Virus record (IMG/VR): IMGVR_UViG_3300005435_000009
Location: 1-45,765 of that record
Origin: a virus
Length of the DNA stretch: 45,765 bases
Strand: one strand, 5' to 3'
The translations under genes were made by a program, and so were the position numbers. The number at the start of each line of letters is the position of its first letter. The stretch's first letter is position 1. Shown here in pieces: positions 307 to 45,765 of this stretch. The notes below the pieces were generated by a model. The model ran no database searches, had not been told where the DNA came from, and saw only the letters and a program-made list of their open reading frames with translations.

Positions 307-407
307 GTCGATCTCCTCATGTGTGTGATTCCCTATGCCAGCCGTGCCAGTCGGCGCGGCTCCCGTTGTCTCGGGTAGGTGCTGGCCCCGAAGGGCAGCA
401 GAGCGCG
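307..407 (-). promoter_or_regulatory. Intergenic cassette upstream of the clamp gene
   Basis: Read leftward, this gap holds the hairpin at the stop of the 408-965 gene (398-420), the sequence CACCTACCCGA, an imperfect hairpin, the box GGCATAGGGAATCA (at 327-340) and a CACACACA leader directly before the Shine-Dalgarno. The same order recurs at 966-1054 and 2259-2360. It could be a terminator followed by a promoter and leader for each gene. The box contains a -10-like CATAGG, but no convincing -35 is visible. Confidence 0.5.
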
Positions 408-420
408 CTATGCGCTCTGC
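398..420 (-). terminator. Stop-codon hairpin of the 408-965 gene
   Basis: GCAGAGCGC pairs with GCGCTCTGC, and the TAG stop lies in the loop. There is no T tract, which is common in high-GC genomes. A second short hairpin (CCCTTCGGGG) follows at once. Confidence 0.5.
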
Positions 421-965
421 TCAGTGGTGGACGGACGAATCTCGTTGGCGTACTCGCGCTCCCACAGATCGCACATGTACGCGGCGCCGGTTGCGTCGCA
501 GATCCGGTACTCCGTACCGGTGCTCGGGTTCACCTTGCCGCGCGTTCGGATCACGAACGTCGTGGCGCCGACGGCGTCAGCGAACCGTGCCACGTGCTGA
601 CCGAACGTCGTTACGTAGCCGTACTTCGCGTCGAGCTTGTCTAGCTTGCGCTGGAGTCCGCTCAGCGTCTTGTGCATGGTCTCAGCGCCGCGCGCGTCCA
701 CCGAGTAGACATCTCGGTACTCGGCACCGCGATTCCAGTAGGCAGGCGCCTCGATGTGGTCGGGCGTGTTCTGTGCGCTGATCTCCAGTCGGTGAAGTCC
801 GTGCTCCCGGTCATCGGTGCCGTACGCGGACGGCATCTCGACGTCGTGCCGTGCGTTCAGGTACACCGGCCGCGCGCGCAGCTTCAACCAGGGCCGATCG
901 CCTGACATGCTCGTGCGCTCCGTCTCCACCATGATCGCGAGGCTCCGCGTCTCTTTCGTATCCAT
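408..965 (-). CDS. Hypothetical phage protein, 185 aa
   Basis: I do not recognise this family. The ATG at 965 follows AAGGAGA with a 7-base gap. The protein is soluble and mixed in charge. Near the middle is a short helical, lysine- and leucine-rich stretch (LQRKLDKLDAKYGY), followed by a compact beta-rich end with FVIRTRGKVNP and two cysteines (ICDATG, YMCDLW). No signal peptide or membrane segment is seen. It stands alone between two copies of the intergenic cassette, in the array of small leftward genes that includes the clamp and Ku, so an early accessory or host-takeover role is an inference from position only. Confidence 0.7.
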   Translation of the reverse strand: MDTKETRSLAIMVETERTSMSGDRPWLKLRARPVYLNARHDVEMPSAYGTDDREHGLHRLEISAQNTPDHIEAPAYWNRGAEYRDVYSVDARGAETMHKTLSGLQRKLDKLDAKYGYVTTFGQHVARFADAVGATTFVIRTRGKVNPSTGTEYRICDATGAAYMCDLWEREYANEIRPSTTEQSA

Positions 966-1054
966 GTGAGTGTCTCCTTGATTCCCTATGCCACGGCGAT
1001 GATGTCGCCGTCCCGTTCTGTCGGGTAGGTGTCCGCCCGTGAGACGGGGCGCGC
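966..1054 (-). promoter_or_regulatory. Intergenic cassette upstream of the 408-965 gene
   Basis: Leftward order: strong stop-codon hairpin, CACCTACCCGA, a small perfect hairpin (GGCGA-CATCA-TCGCC), the box GGCATAGGGAATCA (979-992), then AAGGAGA and ATG. The conserved box and the CTACCCGA sequence match those upstream of the clamp gene. Confidence 0.5.
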
Positions 1055-1073: not shown

Positions 1074-1429
1074 TTGATGTCGATGCCTGTTGCCAGGCGC
1101 AGCCGAAGCGGCGTCAGCGGTACCGCGGTGCGCGTACGGCGCCAGAACCGGCCGTCGCGCCATTCCTCCGTCTCTCGGTAGAGACTGGCGGTATAGCTGA
1201 TCTCGACGTTCGGCTCATCGTCGCGCAGCCAACAGGAGCCGATCTCGTACGTGTCGCGCTCGTCCCACCATTGGGGATCGGAGATGTAGTTTCCGATCGC
1301 GCGTAGCGCGCTGGTCGCGTCTGGATAGGTGCGCTCCTCGCTGCCATCATCGCAAATGTCGATGTCGTCCGCCGGAGTGCGGCCCCAACAGATGACTGCG
1401 CGGTATGCGTGGATGCGGCGGATGATCAC
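1055..1429 (-). CDS. Hypothetical phage protein, 124 aa
   Basis: I do not recognise the family. The GTG at 1429 overlaps the TGA of the upstream gene (GTGA), which fixes the start, and AAAGGTG lies just before it. The protein begins with a beta-strand-like IIRRIHAYRAVICW. It is rich in aromatic and acidic residues (DPQWWDERDTYEIGSCW) and ends with a basic, leucine-rich tail. No membrane segment is seen. It is translationally coupled to the 83-residue gene at 1426-1677, so the two products probably act together or at the same time. Confidence 0.7.
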   Translation of the reverse strand: MIIRRIHAYRAVICWGRTPADDIDICDDGSEERTYPDATSALRAIGNYISDPQWWDERDTYEIGSCWLRDDEPNVEISYTASLYRETEEWRDGRFWRRTRTAVPLTPLRLRLATGIDINRETGA

Positions 1430-1677
1430 GCGCCCACCTTTGCCGCGATGAACTGACCGCGCGCGTCCACGTAACCGACGAACGCGCGGCGTCCGCGTGG
1501 ACTGCTGCCAGTAGTCGCGTAGATGTCGAACACGTCTCCGAGTTCGGCATCGTTGCGTCCGACCACTTCCACGCCGGCGGCCCATCCGCGAGTGTGGGAC
1601 TGGATGCCGCTGGATTTGGAGCCGAGGCGCGACGCCGGGCCGCGCGAACCGCTGATGTCTGCGATGAAATGGGCCAT
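1426..1677 (-). CDS. Small conserved phage protein (GSRG-SRLGSKSSG type), 83 aa
   Basis: The sequence MAHFIADISGSRGPASRLGS, followed by KSSG and later GWAAGVEVVGRND, matches a small family that I recall as common among actinobacteriophages, always uncharacterised. The ATG at 1677 follows CGGAG and an ACACAC leader. The protein is beta-rich, with no cysteines and no membrane helix. Its stop overlaps the GTG of the next gene. This family is one of the better hints that the phage belongs to the actinobacteriophage gene pool. The function is unknown. Confidence 0.75.
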   Translation of the reverse strand: MAHFIADISGSRGPASRLGSKSSGIQSHTRGWAAGVEVVGRNDAELGDVFDIYATTGSSPRGRRAFVGYVDARGQFIAAKVGA

Positions 1678-1772
1678 GTGTGTCTCCGATGGTTGGGTGG
1701 GAGTGTGTGACTTCCCTATTCGCGCTTGGCAGCGCGATTCGGCCGGTAGTCAGCCGGCCTCGTCAGTAGGGG
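1678..1772 (-). promoter_or_regulatory. Intergenic cassette with two hairpins and CA-rich leader
   Basis: Leftward this holds a hairpin GGCCGG-N7-CCGGCC (1741-1759), a second hairpin CGCGCT-GCCA-AGCGCG (1721-1736), a diverged box AATAGGGAAGTCA (1708-1720), a CACACAC run and CGGAG before ATG. It is a variant of the cassettes at 307 and 966. Confidence 0.45.
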
Positions 1773-2258: not shown

Positions 2259-2328
2259 TGGTGTCTCCCGTGATTCCCTATGCCGATCCACGTTGGGTGG
2301 ATCACGTTGCATCGGTCAGGTACGCGAA

Positions 2329-2357
2329 GTGGGAACGGACGTCATGTCCGCTCCCAC
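2329..2357 (-). terminator. Hairpin in the gene-free region
   Basis: GTGGGA-CGGAC pairs with GTCCG-TCCCAC around a 5-base loop, with one mismatch. It resembles the stop-codon hairpins of the accessory array, but no gene ends here. Confidence 0.4.
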
Positions 2358-2871
2358 TGTGCAGTGTGTTACCTCGCACACTTAGGAATCAGTTTGTCTT
2401 GCTCTGTATTTCGATCCGTTCCTACCCTGGGGCCGATCTAGCTTGTCGGGACGCACTCCAACTGTCAGTCGCTCCCTACGTACCTCTGCGGTACCATGGA
2501 CGTTCCAGCGCGATTCACCAGTTGGGCGGTATCTCCGGCCTACTGCTTACACAGCGCACTCGATGTACCGACCTTGGGGAGTTGATCTTCACTTTGAAAG
2601 GTGCCGTTGAACTGTCACTATCATCTGGCCCAGCCCCGTCGTCTCAGTTGCATGACAGAGACATATCGGAGTCGCGCTCTGTGCCAGGCTGGCGACATCT
2701 GCGGAGGCGCCCTTGCGTCCGTCAAGCGTGAACGGGACCACTCCCGACACCTTCTGTGAGGCGCTGAGAACCACTGAGAGACACCGTTTCCTGCTAGGCA
2801 AGGGATCGCATTGGCAGTGTCGGTTTCGCGTCACTCGGCGGACGTGCGGCGATTTGATGTCAGCGCGACCC

Positions 2872-2910
2872 TGACAGCATCGCGGCGCGACGCTGGTCCG
2901 ATGCCTGTCA
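2872..2910. repeat. Inverted repeat TGACAG-CATCG in the gene-free region
   Basis: TGACAGCATCG (2872-2882) is matched on the opposite strand by TGACAGGCATCG (2899-2910), one extra base, with 16 bases between. It is the most prominent structure in the gene-free stretch and could be a protein-binding site or a transcript hairpin. Confidence 0.5.
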
Positions 2911-3168
2911 GTCGGGGTTATGCCGCCGATCAGACGTGAAGCCGGCGATATGACGGCGTATAGCACTGATACGACGGGGATCGGACGGAGTGAGCCATGA
3001 CTGATGGCAGGTTCATCTCGGACTGTCGGCAAGATGACGTCGAATTGACGGAAGGCCCCACCCCGGAACAAGCGACCGACGGAGCTTAGGGGCGGGCCGT
3101 GGTAGATGTTCCGCCACCTCACTCGGCCTCGCAGGACCGCACGCCAGTCGTAACGGGTGCGGCCGACC

Positions 3169-10008: not shown

Positions 10009-10265
10009 TCGTTGCCCTCCAGGTCGAGCGGGCCCGAGAGGTCGCCGTGCGCCGGTGCGTCCGGGTCCATGTCCACGGGCAGCTCGGCGGTCAGCGAGCC
10101 GGACAGCGGCTCGCGCCTGACCAGCGGGATGCGGACGGTGATCGCGAACGCGTACTCCCCGGGCTCCAAGTCCTGAAAGGACGGCTGCCGCTTGCGCAGC
10201 CGGACCCGTCCGTCGCGGTTCGCGAGCAGGTAGGTCGTGACGGTCGTGTACGAGACGGTCCCCAT
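10005..10265 (-). CDS. Hypothetical phage protein, 86 aa
   Basis: ATG 10265 follows GAGGAGCT with a 6-base gap. It starts MGTVSYTTVTTYLLANRDGR, continues with a basic stretch (VRLRKRQPSF) and a beta-rich centre (YAFAITVRIPLVRRE), and has an acidic end DLEGNE. It is soluble, with no cysteines. It sits between the Cas4/RecB-type exonuclease and the primase-helicase and is coupled to the latter by a GTGA overlap. The function is unknown. Confidence 0.6.
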   Translation of the reverse strand: MGTVSYTTVTTYLLANRDGRVRLRKRQPSFQDLEPGEYAFAITVRIPLVRREPLSGSLTAELPVDMDPDAPAHGDLSGPLDLEGNE

Positions 10266-40623: not shown

Positions 40624-41556
40624 TCACCGGGCCGCCGTTCTTGTGCGCTTGGCCTCGTCTACGCTCTCGCGCAGCTTGGCCATCAGGTCGATGACCGTCG
40701 CCGTCGCGGCGACCGGCGGGGCCACCGTCTTGGCGTCCAGGCGCGCGTTCAGCGCCTCGGCGTAAGGGTCGTGGTAGCGGTTCGCGTCGAAGATCGGTTG
40801 CCGCATCCCGCGCACCAGCAGGCGCGCCATCCCCAGCTCGTCGGCGTTCACCGCCGCCTCCCCGTAGAGGTTGGGCAGCGATGCGTCCGAGCGCACCTCG
40901 GACGGCCAGTGCAGCAGCACCAGCACCAGCCGGCCGTGCTCCGCACGGACCATGCACAGGTGCCGGCGCTCGCGCATGGTGACCTGCCCGATGGCGACCG
41001 TCCGCGTCCGCCTCAGCGTCTCCGCGAGCAGGTCGTACGGGCGCCGGCCCTGCTTGTCCGGCGCGATGTAGTAGGTGCGGTCGTGGTAGACCGCTGGCAC
41101 GCTGCCGGCGGGCACGAACTCCTCGACCGCTATCGCCTTGGGGCCCGTCTGCTCGCGCAGCTCGACCAGCTCGGCCGGCGTCACGGTGGCCGGGCCGCCG
41201 GCCGTCTCGATTCCCCGCACGATGTCGGTGCTGGCCAGCTCGTGGCCCTCGCCGTGGTCGCACCAGCGGCGCATCCGCAGCCGGGTGCCGTGGTGCTTGC
41301 AGAACTGATGTAGGGCCGGTGTCCCGTCCTCGGTGGCCGTGTAGAGGCGCACCGGGGCGGTGACCATGCCGAAGGCAATGGTGCCCGTCCACATGGCCCT
41401 GGTGGCCAGCGGCGGGTCCGCCCGCTCCGGCTTGCCCTCCCAGCGGACGGCCTCGGTCTCGGGCAGGCTCCGCGCGTAGGCGCTCGCCTCGCCGTCGGTC
41501 GCGAACTCGCGCTCGTGGCCGGGCTGGCCGGGCGCTGCGTGTCGGATCGTGATCAT
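40624..41556 (-). CDS. Ku-like protein of bacterial NHEJ, 310 aa
   Basis: Binds DNA double-strand ends and recruits the NHEJ ligase. After ~55 residues of N-terminal extension, RAMWTGTIAFGMVTAPVRLY TATED is the hallmark start of bacterial Ku. Then come a degenerate zinc-finger region (CKHHGTRLRMRRWCDHGEGH), DIVRGIE, AIAVEEFVPAGSVPAVYHDR TYYIAPDKQGRRPYDLLAET LRRTRTVAIGQVTMRERRHL and VLVLLHWPSEVR. These match Ku in order. ATG 41556 follows GGAGGT with a 7-base gap and a (CA)6 leader. Mycobacteriophages Omega and Corndog are known to carry Ku and to use host LigD to close their short-ended genomes; this phage also lacks a visible ligase. Confidence 0.9.
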   Translation of the reverse strand: MITIRHAAPGQPGHEREFATDGEASAYARSLPETEAVRWEGKPERADPPLATRAMWTGTIAFGMVTAPVRLYTATEDGTPALHQFCKHHGTRLRMRRWCDHGEGHELASTDIVRGIETAGGPATVTPAELVELREQTGPKAIAVEEFVPAGSVPAVYHDRTYYIAPDKQGRRPYDLLAETLRRTRTVAIGQVTMRERRHLCMVRAEHGRLVLVLLHWPSEVRSDASLPNLYGEAAVNADELGMARLLVRGMRQPIFDANRYHDPYAEALNARLDAKTVAPPVAATATVIDLMAKLRESVDEAKRTRTAAR

Positions 41557-41561
41557 CGGGG

Positions 41562-42068
41562 TTACCTCCGGGTCGGTGTGTGTGTGTGGTTGCGGGCTCG
41601 CTGTCGGTTGATGAACATAGCGACGGCCTTGGTCGCGACAAGGTCCAGAGCCCGTGCTAGGGCCTCCGGGTTGGCATGGCCGAGGGATGGCAGTCCGATG
41701 CGGTCTCGGGCCTCGTCGCGGGAGATGACGCCGGCCCGGTAGAGGCTGGCGATTTCCGTTGGCCCCGCGTCCGCCGTCACCGACCGCGAGGGATCGGGCG
41801 GGCTCGTCTGCCACTCCTGGGGCTCGGCCTCCAGCATGTCGCGAGACTCCGCGCGGCTGATGACCTTGGCGCGGCAGAGCGCCGCGATCTCGGTCGCCTT
41901 GAGCTGGGAGTGGTCGCCGGCTTGAATGGCGCAGCGCCGGTCGTGTTCGGCTACGGCCGCCCGCGCCTTGCTCTCGGCTCCTCGCTCCGCGCGCGAGCGG
42001 ACGGGCCACCAGTCCGGCCGGTCGTCTTCGGGTTCGAGCCCACCATCGGGCTCGTACGTGTCTGTCAC
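41562..42068 (-). CDS. Hypothetical protein with two internal repeats, 168 aa
   Basis: GTG 42068 follows GGAGG with a 4-base gap. Two repeats of a short helix-turn-helix-like unit are seen: EIAALCRAKVISRAESRDML and EIASLYRAGVISRDEARDRI GL, the kind of 'ARVISRDEAR' module seen in phage virion or portal-associated proteins. The N-terminus is acidic and basic mixed. The C-terminal HTHTPTRR is encoded by the (CA)n leader of Ku, whose start is only 5 bases beyond this stop. The function is unknown. Confidence 0.65.
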   Translation of the reverse strand: MTDTYEPDGGLEPEDDRPDWWPVRSRAERGAESKARAAVAEHDRRCAIQAGDHSQLKATEIAALCRAKVISRAESRDMLEAEPQEWQTSPPDPSRSVTADAGPTEIASLYRAGVISRDEARDRIGLPSLGHANPEALARALDLVATKAVAMFINRQRARNHTHTPTRR

Positions 42069-42125
42069 TTTGCCTCCGTGCGTGTGTGTGAGTGGATTGT
42101 CGATGCGGCGGACGTCATCTCGGCG

Positions 42126-42341
42126 TCAGCGCACCTCCAAATAGATCGCGGTCCGGGTGCAGCGGTCGCACGCCTCCGGGTTGGTCGGGTCCCAGGCCGG
42201 GGCCTGGTCGGTGACCGGCCGTACGCGAGCACCGCAAACGCCATGGGGCTTTCCCGGGCGGGCGGCGTGGAGCTTTGAGGGGGTGGCGCGGCTGCGGTTC
42301 GCGATGGCCGCGCGGGCAGCGTGGAGCGGGACGGCGGGCAT
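42126..42341 (-). CDS. Small protein with Cys motif, 71 aa
   Basis: ATG 42341 follows GGAGGT with a 6-base gap. The first half is basic (PLHAARAAIANRSRATPSKL), the second has HGVCGARVRPVTDQAPAWDP and EACDRCTRTAIYLEVR, three cysteines with a CxxC. It may be a small nucleic-acid-binding or metal-binding protein. It stands alone, between two intergenic stretches that each carry a CACACACA run. Confidence 0.6.
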   Translation of the reverse strand: MPAVPLHAARAAIANRSRATPSKLHAARPGKPHGVCGARVRPVTDQAPAWDPTNPEACDRCTRTAIYLEVR

Positions 42342-42530
42342 GGTTGGACCTCCAGTGGGCTAGGATGGGCGGCACGGCGCCGTCTCCGACGTCGTGTGTG
42401 TGAGGGACCGTCAGCGCAAGCCGACGGTCTCTCGCGCGTTTTGGGCGGTTACCCAAAAATGAGTAGCGCGCAAAAGGCTCCCTGCTTCCCCGTCAGGCCG
42501 GGGATTCGACCGGGTGCCAGCCGGCTCTCG
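42342..42530 (-). promoter_or_regulatory. Intergenic region with two hairpins and a CA run
   Basis: Leftward order: hairpin TTTTGGG-TAACCG-CCCAAAA (42439-42458), which likely ends the upstream gene; hairpin GACCGTC-N10-GACGGTC (42406-42429); a CACACACA run (42395-42402); then GGAGGT before the small gene at 42341. It is a cassette-like arrangement similar to those in the 0.3-2.3 kb area. Confidence 0.5.
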
Positions 42531-42731
42531 TCAGGCAGGCTTGACAGTAACGTGGACTCGTCCGCGTTGGCGCTTGCCAGGTTCACCGTTGATCGGTGGG
42601 ACCGCGAGGTTGAGGTACGCGGCAGGGTCGGTCCTGATCTCCGTGCTGATGGCTTGGGCCAGAGCCGGCCATGCGGTGTCGGGCGGGAGCGGGTATTCCT
42701 CGTCGAACGCGAGGATGATCTTGAAGCGCAT
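42531..42731 (-). CDS. Hypothetical protein from an internal start, 66 aa
   Basis: ATG 42731 follows AGAGGAAAG with an 8-base gap and the (CA)10 leader, exactly like the separate genes of this array. It starts MRFKIILAFDEEYPLP, then a helix (WPALAQAISTEIRTDPAAYL) and a basic strand end (GRVHVTVKPA). It is a small strand-helix-strand protein of unknown function, in the same frame as the zinc-ribbon gene. Confidence 0.6.
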   Translation of the reverse strand: MRFKIILAFDEEYPLPPDTAWPALAQAISTEIRTDPAAYLNLAVPPINGEPGKRQRGRVHVTVKPA

Positions 42732-42941
42732 TACGTTGTCTTTCCTCTGTGTGTGTGTGTGTGTGTGTCCGAGTTCTGCCAGCAGTGCGTCAGTCGCCGG
42801 CTGGCCGGTCAGGTTGTTGTACCAGGCGCCGCAACTCGGGCACTCAGCGGTGCCCGGCTTGCGGTGGAGCTGGACGCGGGAGCCGCATACGGTGCAGGCT
42901 CCCACGCGGTACGAATCGCCGGGGATTCCCCGAAGCTTCAC
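42531..42941 (-). CDS. Zinc-ribbon protein fused in frame, through a (CA)10 tract, to a second gene, 136 aa
   Basis: GTG 42941 overlaps the upstream TGA. The first half (KLRGIPGDSYRVGACTVCGS, CPSCGAWYNN) is a clear zinc ribbon with two CxxC pairs. Then the frame reads through a (CA)10 run as GHTHTHTQ into MRFKIILAFDEEYPLPPDTA WPALAQAISTEIRTDPAAYL. The latter part has its own ATG at 42731 after AGAGGAAAG, so 42531-42731 is probably also, or mainly, a separate 66-residue gene. A change of one CA unit would separate the two frames. Whether fused or separate products are made is open. Confidence 0.6.
   Translation of the reverse strand: MKLRGIPGDSYRVGACTVCGSRVQLHRKPGTAECPSCGAWYNNLTGQPATDALLAELGHTHTHTQRKDNVMRFKIILAFDEEYPLPPDTAWPALAQAISTEIRTDPAAYLNLAVPPINGEPGKRQRGRVHVTVKPA
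42748..42768. repeat. Dinucleotide microsatellite (GT)10 / (CA)10
   Basis: Ten uninterrupted GT units on the + strand, the longest of several CA runs in leaders of the accessory array. It lies inside an open frame, where a two-base slip changes the reading frame. Confidence 0.9.
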
Positions 42942-43165
42942 TCCTCCTCCCGTACGTACGGCCGGGTGCCCTGGCCGTCGGTCACCATGACCACCCGGTC
43001 ACAGTAGGCGTTCTCGCCGTGGCCCCGCTTGATGGCCCGGTCCACGCTCTCGATGCAGGCCCGCGCCGCAGCCGGCGTCCGGTGCCGGTGCGGGCACTCG
43101 CCCGTCACGTTGCCCGGTAGGTTGGTGCCGGGCAAGAACGGCGCGCCGCCGAGGTAGTACCTCAT
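42938..43165 (-). CDS. Hypothetical phage protein, 75 aa
   Basis: ATG 43165 overlaps the upstream TGA and the stop overlaps the GTG of the zinc-ribbon gene. The sequence MRYYLGGAPFLPGTNLPGNV TGECPHRHRTPAAARACIES VDRAIKRGHGENAYCDRVVM has a His/Cys group (CPHRH, later C) that could bind metal, then VTDGQGTRPYVREEE. No family is recognised. It is part of a three-gene coupled set. Confidence 0.6.
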   Translation of the reverse strand: MRYYLGGAPFLPGTNLPGNVTGECPHRHRTPAAARACIESVDRAIKRGHGENAYCDRVVMVTDGQGTRPYVREEE

Positions 43166-43764
43166 GACGTGCGCTCCAGCAGGGTAGCGATGCAGCGCGC
43201 CAGCTCGGGCGCTAGCGCGAGGCTCACGCGCAGCGTGAACTTGACCTCGTCGCCCATGACCTCCAGGTCGCCGTGGACCGGGTTGCCGTAGCGCCCGATG
43301 CGGGCCTCGACGGTCTCCCGGCCGTGGCGCTGTGTCACGGCCTCCCCGTGCCCTCCCAGGGCCTCTAGGACGGCTGCTAGTGTCGTCTGCCGGCCAGCCT
43401 CGTACTCGTCGCTCTGCGCCTTGCGCTCCCGGAGCGTGTAGAGCAGGTTTCGCAGGTCGGGCAGCAGCCGCCGCTCGATGTCGCGAGCGATGACTGCCGC
43501 CGACTTCGCCTGGCTGACCGTGATCTCCGCGCGCTTGGCGTTGTACGGCATGTGCGGTCGCAGATCGGCGCCGTAGCTCGCGCTGAGGTTCAGCCGGCCC
43601 GCCATCGCGGGCGGCCAAGTCGGCATCGTGACGTGGATCTCCTCGCCTTCCGGGCCAATCAGGCGCGCGTCGCGCACGGTCGGCCCTTCGTACCAGCCCG
43701 GCGCGGCCTTCCAGCCGTCGCCCAGCGCCGCCGCGATCTCGCGCGTGATCGTCTTGATGTCCAT
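43162..43764 (-). CDS. Hypothetical phage protein, 200 aa
   Basis: ATG 43764 follows GAGGAG and a (CA)6 leader. The N-terminal domain alternates strands and turns (DIKTITREIAAALGDGWKAA PGWYEG, EEIHVTMPTWPPAMAGRLNL SASYGADLRPH). The central helix is long and charged (VIARDIERRLLPDLRNLLYT LRERKAQSDEYEAGRQ). The end is strand-helix (DEVKFTLRVSLALAPELARC IATLLERTS). It is probably a soluble two-domain protein of unknown role, and heads a three-gene coupled set. Confidence 0.65.
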   Translation of the reverse strand: MDIKTITREIAAALGDGWKAAPGWYEGPTVRDARLIGPEGEEIHVTMPTWPPAMAGRLNLSASYGADLRPHMPYNAKRAEITVSQAKSAAVIARDIERRLLPDLRNLLYTLRERKAQSDEYEAGRQTTLAAVLEALGGHGEAVTQRHGRETVEARIGRYGNPVHGDLEVMGDEVKFTLRVSLALAPELARCIATLLERTS

Positions 43765-43797
43765 TGCGTTGTCTCCTCGTGTGTGTGTGGTTGCTGT

Positions 43798-44160
43798 CTA
43801 GGTCGGCCGGTGGATCTCGGCCGGGTGGACGATCTCGCCGTCCCTGTTCGCGTAGGGCAGGCACGCCATGCCGTTACCCCGGTCGCGCCAGTCAGTGCCG
43901 GCCCACTCGATGTCCTGACCGCAGACGACGCACGTTCGCCGGGTGCCGATCGGCCACGTGCGGTACAGAACGCGGTCCTCGCCGCCCTGCCCGTACGGAG
44001 GCAGCTCGCGCAGCTCCAGGGTCCCGTTCGTGTCCAGGTACAACTCGTACACTGGCGCGTTGCCACCCAAGGACAGGCGGGCGCGAGCCTGGCCCGCGCA
44101 CTTGTGCGTATGCCAGTGCAGGCCGCCGCCGTCCGTGGTGACCATGATCGTCTTGGGCAT
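43798..44160 (-). CDS. Hypothetical protein with Cys/His motif, 120 aa
   Basis: ATG 44160 follows GAGGAG and an ACACAAACAC leader. It begins with MPKTIMVTTDGGGLHWHTHK CAGQAR, later ARLSLGGNAPVYELYLDTNG and TCVVCGQDIEWAGTDWRDRG, a CxxC and nearby aromatic residues. It is beta-rich, with no membrane segment. It might be a small metal-binding protein; the family is unknown. Confidence 0.65.
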   Translation of the reverse strand: MPKTIMVTTDGGGLHWHTHKCAGQARARLSLGGNAPVYELYLDTNGTLELRELPPYGQGGEDRVLYRTWPIGTRRTCVVCGQDIEWAGTDWRDRGNGMACLPYANRDGEIVHPAEIHRPT

Positions 44161-44240
44161 GGCTTCTCCTCGTGTTTGTGTCGGGACGGCGCCTCACTGC
44201 CGTCAGTGCCGGCCCTTGAACCACATGGCCGGTATCGGGC

Positions 44241-44261
44241 GAGACGGGCGCGGCCCGTCTC
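44241..44261 (-). terminator. GAGACGGGC stop-codon hairpin, second copy
   Basis: GAGACGGGC pairs with GCCCGTCTC around a short CGC loop, starting directly at the TGA of the 44260-44364 frame. The same stem occurs at 1037-1073 and 45065-45087. Confidence 0.6.
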
Positions 44262-44364
44262 ACTTCTCCGCGTCGATCTCCGCGTACCGCTCTGCCCAGG
44301 TCGCCGCGTCGAACGTTTCGCGCACCAGTGCTCGCAACGCGCGCCGGCTGCCGGTAGCCGTCAT
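44260..44364 (-). CDS. Small or broken gene, 34 aa from ATG
   Basis: The frame from ATG 44364, MTATGSRRALRALVRETFDA ATWAERYAEIDAEK, has strong coding bias in its last 22 codons and ends in the cassette hairpin. Upstream, a different frame starting about 44422 reads RPGIKALDVQFIPRAGSYND GYRQPARVA with good bias. The two may be parts of one gene with a frameshift near 44330, or this may be a short real gene. The interval 44365-44478 has no other feature. Confidence 0.4.
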   Translation of the reverse strand: MTATGSRRALRALVRETFDAATWAERYAEIDAEK

Positions 44365-44478
44365 TGTAGCTACCGGCGCGCGGGATGAACTGAACGTCGA
44401 GAGCTTTGATGCCCGGCCGCACGGTCCACTGGTGCCTGCCAGGAGCGACGCTCGCGCCCGTGGCCGCGACAGTGCCGG

Positions 44479-45000
44479 CTATGCCGGCCCTGTCAGCCCT
44501 AGCTCATTGGCTAGGTCACGGACGACTTCGGCCAGGTACTCAGGGTCGTAGTCGCTCTCGATGCGCCACAGGCTTTGCGCCTTGGTAACGATCGGGCGGT
44601 TGTAGGCGTCCGTGCCGTCGAGCACTTCTAGGATGACACCCACGTACCCAAACTCCAGCAGCGCCTGTAGGTGCTCGCTCATCTTGTCGAACTCGGGCGT
44701 TCCCGGCGTTGGACCGTCGGTCGGAGGCTGCCACCAAACCCGGTCGCCGTGCCTGTTGGCAAGGAGCTTGCGGGCAGTCCCACCGAATCCGGCCGGGCGC
44801 GTCTTGTCATAGCCGGTGTCCCTGTCGCGCTCGACCCACGCGACGGTTCCATAGAACTCGTCAGGATCGTCCATGTAGTTGGTATCGTCCGGCTCGATCC
44901 GCAGTCGCAGAGTGCGACCGTCACGCAGCTCTAGCGTGTCGCCGTCGTGCTGGAGCGCGCCCAGGTCGAGCGCGCTCTCGTTTGGTTGCTGGGTGGTCAT
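44479..45000 (-). CDS. Conserved actinophage-type protein of unknown function, 173 aa
   Basis: ATG 45000 follows CGGAG and an ACACACAC leader. The run GDTLELRDGRTLRLRIEPDD, DPDEFYGTVAWVERDRDTGY, RPAGFGGTARKLLANRHGDR VWWQPPTDG, LQALLEFGYVGVILEVLDGT DAYNRPIV, SLWRIESDYDPEYLAEVVRD matches a family I recall from many Mycobacterium, Gordonia and Streptomyces phages, never characterised. It is soluble, alpha/beta. It supports an actinobacterial gene pool for this array. Confidence 0.7.
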   Translation of the reverse strand: MTTQQPNESALDLGALQHDGDTLELRDGRTLRLRIEPDDTNYMDDPDEFYGTVAWVERDRDTGYDKTRPAGFGGTARKLLANRHGDRVWWQPPTDGPTPGTPEFDKMSEHLQALLEFGYVGVILEVLDGTDAYNRPIVTKAQSLWRIESDYDPEYLAEVVRDLANELGLTGPA

Positions 45001-45064
45001 GTGTGTGTCTCCGTTTCGGCCGTACTGCGACCGTCGTCAGCAACGCGCGAAGCGTTGGACGGAG

Positions 45065-45087: not shown

Positions 45088-45436
45088 AGAACGAGTAGTC
45101 GTGGTACTGGTTGCGGACCCCTATCAGCAGGCCGAGCCCGCCGCGCATGGTTTCGCCTTCGCGGACCCACTTGCCGTTGCGGCGCCGTGTGTAGCGCACC
45201 CGAGCCGCGTCCGGGTTGGGCGCGTACTCGTACTGCTGCGCGTCGGACATGCCGTAGCTGTCCGTGCGCGTCGCCGTATCCTCTTTGACGTCGAGTGCTG
45301 CGCCCGTCGTGCTGACCCACACTATGGTTGCGGCGCGCCTGTCAGTCCACAGAAGGATGGTGGCGCCCATGCCGACGGTCGGTACGGGCGCGCTGCTGTT
45401 GTCCATGATCGAGTTGACGAGCGATCCGGTTTTCAC
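45086..45436 (-). CDS. Hypothetical phage protein, 116 aa
   Basis: GTG 45436 overlaps the TGA of the clamp-like gene and follows GGAGGT with a 6-base gap. Beta-rich N-terminal half (GMGATILLWTDRRAATIVWV STTGAALDVKED), then SDAQQYEYAPNPDAARVRYT RRRNGKWVREGE and a hydrophobic, Gly-rich end (GGLGLLIGVRNQYHDYSF). Proteins ending in a similar VRxQYxDxSF are known to me from actinophages, without function. It is coupled to the clamp-like protein, so a joint role in replication control is possible. Confidence 0.65.
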   Translation of the reverse strand: MKTGSLVNSIMDNSSAPVPTVGMGATILLWTDRRAATIVWVSTTGAALDVKEDTATRTDSYGMSDAQQYEYAPNPDAARVRYTRRRNGKWVREGETMRGGLGLLIGVRNQYHDYSF

Positions 45437-45765
45437 GCTGCTACCTCCGCAGTAGCGTTCACCGTGAGGCACTCCGAGACGTCGAACCGCTTGCTACGGC
45501 TGCTGTCAGGCTTGCGAATCGACATCAGCAGCGCGACGCGGTCTCCCATCTCGAACCGTACCGGCTTGGTCTCAGACGGAGCCGACACGCTGACCGTCAC
45601 GTACGGTCCGACGCCACGCAGCATGTCAGTCAGGTACGCGGCGTTCAGCGCGACTACTGTTCCGTCGGCGCCCGTGAACGTCACGGGTGAGACGGTCATC
45701 CGCTTCGCCTTACCGTAGGCCAGCGCCGCCGCGACGACGGCGCGCAGCTCCTCCATGTCGCCTAC
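45433..45765 (-). CDS. Sliding-clamp (DnaN-like) protein, C-terminal part, begins at 306 after circular joining
   Basis: This is the continuation of the gene at 1-306. It encodes DMEELRAVVAAALAYGKAKR MTVSPVTFTGADGTVVALNA AYLTDMLRGVGPYVTVSVSA PSETKPVRFE and an end not seen in standard clamps (MGDRVALLMSIRKPDSSRSK RFDVSECLTVNATAEVAA). Within this window it is cut at the contig end; the ATG at 45756 (an internal Met) is not the real start. The stop TGA overlaps the GTG of the 45086-45436 gene. Confidence 0.6.
   Translation of the reverse strand, partial: VGDMEELRAVVAAALAYGKAKRMTVSPVTFTGADGTVVALNAAYLTDMLRGVGPYVTVSVSAPSETKPVRFEMGDRVALLMSIRKPDSSRSKRFDVSECLTVNATAEVAA
45706..45765. repeat. Terminal 60-bp direct repeat, right copy
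   Basis: Identical to bases 1-60. See the left copy. Confidence 0.9.

Follow-up and report, generated by a model that had tools for sequence, protein, structure and literature searches.

The stretch of DNA analysed here (the window) is the whole of IMG/VR virus record IMGVR_UViG_3300005435_000009, 45,765 bases at 69% GC, and this report concerns the runs of alternating C and A that lie close to the start codons of its accessory genes. The analysis shows where these runs lie and on which strand, how far they are enriched, what the leaders that hold them are composed of and how open they are predicted to be, and that such leaders recur in unrelated phages. The first 60 bases of the record are identical to the last 60 (1-60 and 45706-45765), which leaves 45,705 unique bases, and this end repeat is the mark of a closed circle or of a short terminal redundancy. 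As the ends are identical, the gene running from 45433 to 306 spans them. Genes for an integrase, portal, terminase, major head protein and primase/helicase were detected, placing the phage among the temperate tailed phages.

Genes were called with a script based on codon usage and the Shine-Dalgarno (SD) sequence that was made for this analysis, using no annotation, and gave 74 genes, 16 in the accessory array and 58 others. The array is a single block on the minus strand that extends from 2.26 kb down to position 1 and continues past the ends, through the last part of the contig, as far as 40.6 kb; no gene was called in the roughly 0.9 kb (2313-3168) between it and the early genes. Ku is the sole named family among the array proteins scanned, and is around 37% identical to the Ku of mycobacteriophages such as Pound and Lucky2013. 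The array genes whose leaders are described here, referred to below by their start positions, are as follows.

40624 to 41556, minus strand: Ku DNA-end-binding protein, 310 amino acids (PF02735, 1.9e-33; phrog_4873, 3.2e-52)
41562 to 42068, minus strand: accessory gene, 168 amino acids
42126 to 42341, minus strand: accessory gene, 71 amino acids
42531 to 42731, minus strand: accessory gene, 66 amino acids
43162 to 43764, minus strand: accessory gene, 200 amino acids, all families below the cut-off
43798 to 44160, minus strand: accessory gene, 120 amino acids
44479 to 45000, minus strand: accessory gene, 173 amino acids, no PHROG match
45433 to 45765, minus strand: 3' part of an accessory gene of 192 amino acids that starts at 306, across the ends
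408 to 965, minus strand: accessory gene, 185 amino acids, no family matched
1426 to 1677, minus strand: accessory gene, 83 amino acids
2034 to 2258, minus strand: accessory gene, 74 amino acids

A run scan located the following CA stretches in the leaders of these genes.

320 to 327, minus strand: CA run CACACACA, at -21 to -14 from start 306
966 to 973, minus strand: degenerate CA spacer ACACTCAC between SD and ATG, start 965
1678 to 1683, minus strand: CA run ACACAC between SD and ATG, start 1677
1703 to 1709, minus strand: second CA run of the same leader, CACACAC, at -32 to -26
2259 to 2264, minus strand: degenerate CA spacer ACACCA between SD and ATG, start 2258
41576 to 41588, minus strand: CA run of 13 nucleotides (nt) in the Ku leader, inside the 3' end of the preceding open reading frame (ORF)
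42082 to 42090, minus strand: CA run of 9 nt, start 42068
42394 to 42402, minus strand: CA run of 9 nt, distant (-61 to -53) from start 42341 and not beside its SD
42748 to 42768, minus strand: CA run of 21 nt, the longest of the contig, start 42731
43779 to 43789, minus strand: CA run of 11 nt adjoining GAGGAG, start 43764
44172 to 44181, minus strand: near variant ACACAAACAC adjoining GAGGAG, start 44160
45001 to 45008, minus strand: CA run ACACACAC at -8 to -1, between SD and ATG, start 45000

A first-pass annotation of this DNA had named nine starts preceded by a CACACA run or a near variant, and all nine carry one. Its statement that the runs usually sit just upstream of the SD holds for several of them, with runs a few bases upstream at 306, 41556, 42068 and 42731; the run of 45000 and part of that of 1677 lie in the SD-ATG spacer, and that of 42341 is distant. 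Placement is therefore loose, from -61 to -1 and on either side of the SD. Directly after the run at 42394-42402, a GTG with its own GGAG starts a frame on the minus strand (42115-42375). It shares its stretch with gene 42126-42341 but is read in a different phase, and is possibly an overlapping small ORF.

Counted with overlaps, CACACA is found 27 times on the minus (coding) strand and not once on the plus strand. Every CA run of at least 7 nt sits in the leaders of the array, eight of the 11 array leaders examined having one, and elsewhere only two runs of 6 nt were seen (36776 and 37197). In the 60 nt that precede the start, 8/16 array genes and 0/58 others have a run of at least 7 nt (Fisher 8.5e-7), in agreement with the earlier remark that early and structural genes are without them. 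The restriction to one gene class, which had also been claimed, is in part a matter of gene layout, overlap with a neighbour being frequent outside the array, but the contrast survives if only genes that have a gap of at least 30 nt before them are counted (7/12 in the array against 0/27, p = 5e-5). The array genes that overlap a neighbour (starts 1429, 43165 and 45436) have no CA run. Runs of TG, CT or GA of at least 6 nt were found before none of the 16 array genes. The comparison with shuffled sequence that the annotation had proposed gave 25 occurrences of TGTGTG in the array against a mean of 3.8 and a maximum of 11 in 300 shuffles. When the dinucleotides of the whole contig were shuffled 200 times, the gene strand held 27 against 11.6 +/- 3.6 (maximum 22) and the other strand none against 6.6. 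The pattern of CA runs at array starts is thus confirmed as real.

What the leaders share is mainly their composition. Across the 11 window leaders A and C make up 77% of the 18 nt before the SD and 80% of the SD-ATG spacer, and the region from -40 to -9 is 60% A+C in the array compared with 50% elsewhere (p = 0.007). Pairwise identity is 0.36, where composition alone would give 0.33. The predicted mean unpaired probability around the ribosome-binding site (RBS) is 0.54 for array genes and 0.39 for the others (p = 1.4e-5), and reaches 0.62 for the run-bearing genes (p = 2e-7), so that the idea of unstructured CA stretches finds partial support in the predicted openness of the RBS region. The sharing of composition without conservation of sequence is an argument for a landing stretch that is open and unstructured and against the site of a specific factor, and the proposal that one factor reads the runs as a shared regulon does not agree with leaders that are alike in composition and not in sequence.

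Some of the leaders are nevertheless more closely alike. Those of 306, 965 and 2258 share an exact block of 13 nt, and those of 306 and 965 a further block of 21 nt with 0 mismatches, where 0.01 would be expected. The features concerned, the hairpins coming from a hairpin scan apart from the first, which was seen in a fold, are these.

326 to 338, minus strand: shared block GCATAGGGAATCA, exact match, overlapping the CA run
979 to 991, minus strand: second copy of GCATAGGGAATCA, exact match
2271 to 2283, minus strand: third copy of GCATAGGGAATCA, exact match
361 to 381, minus strand: repeated block CACCTACCCGAnAnAACGGGA, copy 1
1011 to 1031, minus strand: repeated block CACCTACCCGAnAnAACGGGA, copy 2
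340 to 361, minus strand: imperfect hairpin upstream of the shared block
993 to 1011, minus strand: hairpin ACGGCGA/TCGCCGT preceding the shared block
1720 to 1737, minus strand: hairpin TCGCGCT/AGCGCGA in the leader of gene 1426 to 1677
2285 to 2303, minus strand: hairpin GATCCAC/GTGGATC preceding the shared block

The leaders of 965, 1677 and 2258 have a perfect stem of 7 bp, differing in sequence, immediately before the block or a variant of it, and in the leader of 306 the hairpin is only weakly kept; the leaders of this type, with the block or a variant and a hairpin (306, 965, 1677 and 2258), form a sub-family. The four hairpin sequences are too small a set for a claim of covariation. 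A hairpin before every leader was considered and is unsupported: a comparison of the 11 leaders with the 58 other genes gave p = 0.13, and for 3' hairpins p = 0.07.

No close relatives of the phage were found by megablast of 24 kb against phages, by searching two proteins against viral contigs, or with Ku. Relatives were found for the primase, portal, Ku and one array protein only, all of them distant, and the nearest named relatives of the primase and portal are mostly phages of Actinobacteria; judged from these distant relatives, the host is probably an actinobacterium. When 396 genomes from a single phylum were searched with the primase, 24 had a distant match, and 17 stretches around such matches, which serve as a background set only, had a CA run before 1/234 genes.

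Similar leaders were found by pattern in other viral contigs. The pattern CA(9)-GAGGAG-ATG occurs at 14 viral loci of 34-71% GC, and CT in place of CA before GAGGAG at two. With AAGGAG as the SD, CA was found at 119 viral loci, 95 of them at called starts, and ACC at 120 or more, with 83 of 119 evaluated at called starts. As ACC runs also lie mostly at starts, strict alternation of C and A is not special, and C/A richness would be what matters. Further CA-led genes numbered 108/1459 in the phage loci picked by CA-AAGGAG and 25/1598 in those picked by ACC, although the Fisher value for this comparison ignores the kinship of contigs (L283 and L294, and L012 and L015, look related) and is overstated. 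Further genes led by TG, CT and GA in the CA-AAGGAG-picked loci were 30, 24 and 53 of 1459, and at least two further CA-led genes were present in 28/119 CA-AAGGAG-picked loci compared with 5/120 picked by ACC. A gap of at least 25 nt lies upstream of 88% of CA-led genes and 55% of others in the viral loci. Rows of C/A leaders are present in viral contigs L207, L294, L283 and L189, and in L294 and L283 they have the form SD-ACACAC-ATG that is also seen in the window.

The possibility that CA-led genes are smaller was dropped, as the difference is slight in the viral loci and disappears once the comparison is limited to gapped genes (p = 0.41). A viral contig of 6.3 kb (L007) has two near-identical units of hairpin and CA leader (240-330 and 780-850) among genes for Gly/Ser/Asp-rich repeats. 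In cellular genome contigs a scan with a longer CA run gave no match, and CA(9)-GAGGAG-ATG gave 58 (L043-L100), 33 of them at called starts, in bacteria of several phyla.

Mycobacterium phage Breeniome (Bixzunavirus) was among the matches, and 190 Bixzunavirus records have a match. In Breeniome the pattern CACACACN{0,12}GGAG has 10 matches on one strand and none on the other, and the reversed control pattern has none. Over its first 22.5 kb, using GenBank starts and dropping the first coding sequence, which has less than 60 nt upstream, a CA run of at least 6 nt precedes 9/23 gapped genes and 1/47 ungapped ones. At 15 starts a TATA(C/G)T box is followed by a leader of A.35, C.48, G.09 and T.09 (83% A+C). 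Among these 15 units the promoter part is conserved (identity 0.60 against 0.26 expected), and the leaders are barely more alike than their composition demands (0.43 against 0.40). The letters of the leaders also vary in Tonenili, DTDevon and Rabinovish and are mostly still C/A-rich, and Streptomyces phage Samy, a relative of G006, has several C/A-rich leaders. Within 1-22500 of Breeniome (L138; for example at 10228, 11122, 11843 and 14446) a palindrome like GGGAATGAATCCC and a TTATA(C/G)T box stand before the C/A leader of accessory genes; no report of this combined Bixzunavirus unit turned up in the literature searches.

The explanation that we favour, with a probability of roughly 0.6, is that the CA runs are the extreme form of a 5' leader rich in C and A and poor in G and U, which keeps the RBS open and anchors the 30S subunit. 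A C/A leader just upstream of the SD, often continuing through the SD-ATG spacer, would pair neither with itself nor with the SD in a transcript of 69% GC, so that the RBS would stay open and the 30S subunit would gain a landing stretch, by standby or anchoring, possibly via protein S1 or direct contacts with the 30S. Each gapped accessory gene would in this way have a self-sufficient, strong translation start. Selection would act on composition (A and C, with little G or U) and not on one sequence, exact CA alternation being one simple solution that may grow by strand slippage. By analogy with the promoter-like boxes of Breeniome, we infer that the runs lie within the mRNA; the run would then raise translation, openness leading to more protein.

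Several points weigh against this explanation. A sequence made up of C and A only will be predicted to be open almost by its very construction, so the prediction is no independent proof, and the perfect 21-nt CA repeat has more order than composition by itself calls for. Some 40 nt separate the run of 42341 from the SD. A permuted C/A string, CCAACACCA, followed by GAGGAG was found at 25 viral loci compared with 14 for CA, although this is a poor control, as the string reads as coding DNA; 9/13 evaluated CA-GAGGAG loci (of 14) are at called starts and 6/24 evaluated permuted ones (of 25). Further CA-led genes in the 14 CA-GAGGAG loci are only 4/176. Finally, the experiments on ACA translation enhancers, which are compared below, were in enteric bacteria (PMC3879156), and the host here is probably an actinobacterium.

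It is doubtful, if conceivable, that unrelated phages converge on C/A leaders as a common handle that keeps translation of the array high under global changes of initiation. The phage, or a factor of its own, would in that case alter initiation, for instance by acting on S1, RNA folding or RNA decay, and host and structural messages would fall.

An alternative is a shared post-transcriptional regulon, in which the CA stretch would be bound by a phage or host protein, or by a small RNA rich in G and U, and the accessory genes would be switched as a group. The restriction of the runs to one array and the exact extra 13-nt block common to three leaders would suit this, and there is a precedent in enteric bacteria, where GcvB acts on ACA enhancers (PMC3879156). 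The leaders are, however, not conserved beyond composition in the window and in Breeniome alike, and the length of the run, its position and its side of the SD all vary. As CACACA is absent from the plus strand, minus-strand transcripts of the contig cannot contain UGUGUG, and there was no Rfam match; no GcvB-like partner was found in these checks of the contig. A sequence-specific regulon is not supported, and we consider it unlikely.

Action at the level of DNA or transcription, with the GGCATAGGGAATCA block as a promoter and the CA stretch as the region of transcript start or the site of a regulator, would account for the exact repetition of the block at 326, 979 and 2271, and in Breeniome a promoter-like box does stand directly before the C/A leader. 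It is nonetheless quite unlikely for the window: no sigma-70-type promoter was found in either region of the array scanned, the TATA(C/G)T...GGAG unit is absent, most CA-led genes are without the block, and CA runs reach into the SD-ATG spacer. That the runs are neutral microsatellites or recombination joints is more doubtful still. Repeats grown by slippage would serve as short homologies for swaps of accessory genes, perhaps with Ku, whose gene is within the array, and the perfect 21-nt repeat is what slippage could leave; slippage or end joining would produce neither the total strand bias of the runs nor their close placement at starts, and other dinucleotide runs are absent before array genes. 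Chance or an artefact of composition, to which the 11.6 occurrences already given by whole-contig shuffles on the gene strand might point, is refuted by the counts (27 against a maximum of 22 in 200 shuffles, 25 against 11 in 300 for the array, and 8/16 against 0/58 starts).

On the favoured explanation of an open C/A leader, the mechanism is of a known kind, and what seems to be new, as a variant, is that several unrelated phages use it across a whole array. It would link a laboratory result, that ACA or CA stretches near the SD boost translation, to a natural use across phage arrays, and the many natural leader variants are material with which to probe what the ribosome needs upstream of the SD. 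The leaders also offer a simple sequence sign for finding small accessory phage genes, which mostly belong to no family, and for starting them correctly. Furthermore, the Bixzunavirus series (about 190 related records) makes the idea testable in Mycobacterium smegmatis, a laboratory host.

Literature searches, which covered open-licence papers only, found no report of CA-rich leaders in phages, and the window leaders were compared with four known or related systems. The start-associated elements SAS and ESAS are described for cluster K mycobacteriophages and Microbacterium cluster EF phages (PMC3203893, PMC7302621). Like the window leaders, they occur repeatedly where non-structural genes start, keep to one orientation and in some cases have inverted repeats upstream. 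SAS is a fixed sequence of 13 bp that includes the SD, whereas the window leaders share mainly composition, and ESAS has 17-bp inverted repeats with a consensus, whereas the 7-bp stems of the window differ in three leaders; on their sequence, the window leaders are not an SAS. The units of Bixzunavirus (Breeniome, Tonenili, DTDevon and Rabinovish) are alike in giving accessory genes their own A/C-rich leaders directly before the SD, and differ in having the TATA(C/G)T box and mixed CCA/CAC/ACA where the window has pure CA and no box. TATASTN{12,42}GGAG has 0 matches in the window, and by sequence its leader is not this unit. CA multimers enhance translation in E. coli when placed downstream of the start codon (Martin-Farmer and Janssen 1999, as cited in PMC4611024 and PMC9031893); the window runs are upstream, and both are near the start.

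The last comparison is with the ACA motifs upstream of the SD of yifK, dppA and gltI, which in PMC3879156 are described as position-tolerant translation enhancers, proposed to act as an anchor for the 30S, perhaps through S1; replacing all four ACA motifs of dppA lowered expression more than 100-fold. In both systems a C/A-rich stretch containing ACA lies near the SD, mostly upstream of it, and its position is tolerant. The window differs in its long CA repeats, in their use before many genes of one array, and in belonging to a phage of 69% GC. The window leaders are not assigned as members of this class, but they appear to resemble the ACA enhancers in the features that are visible in sequence.

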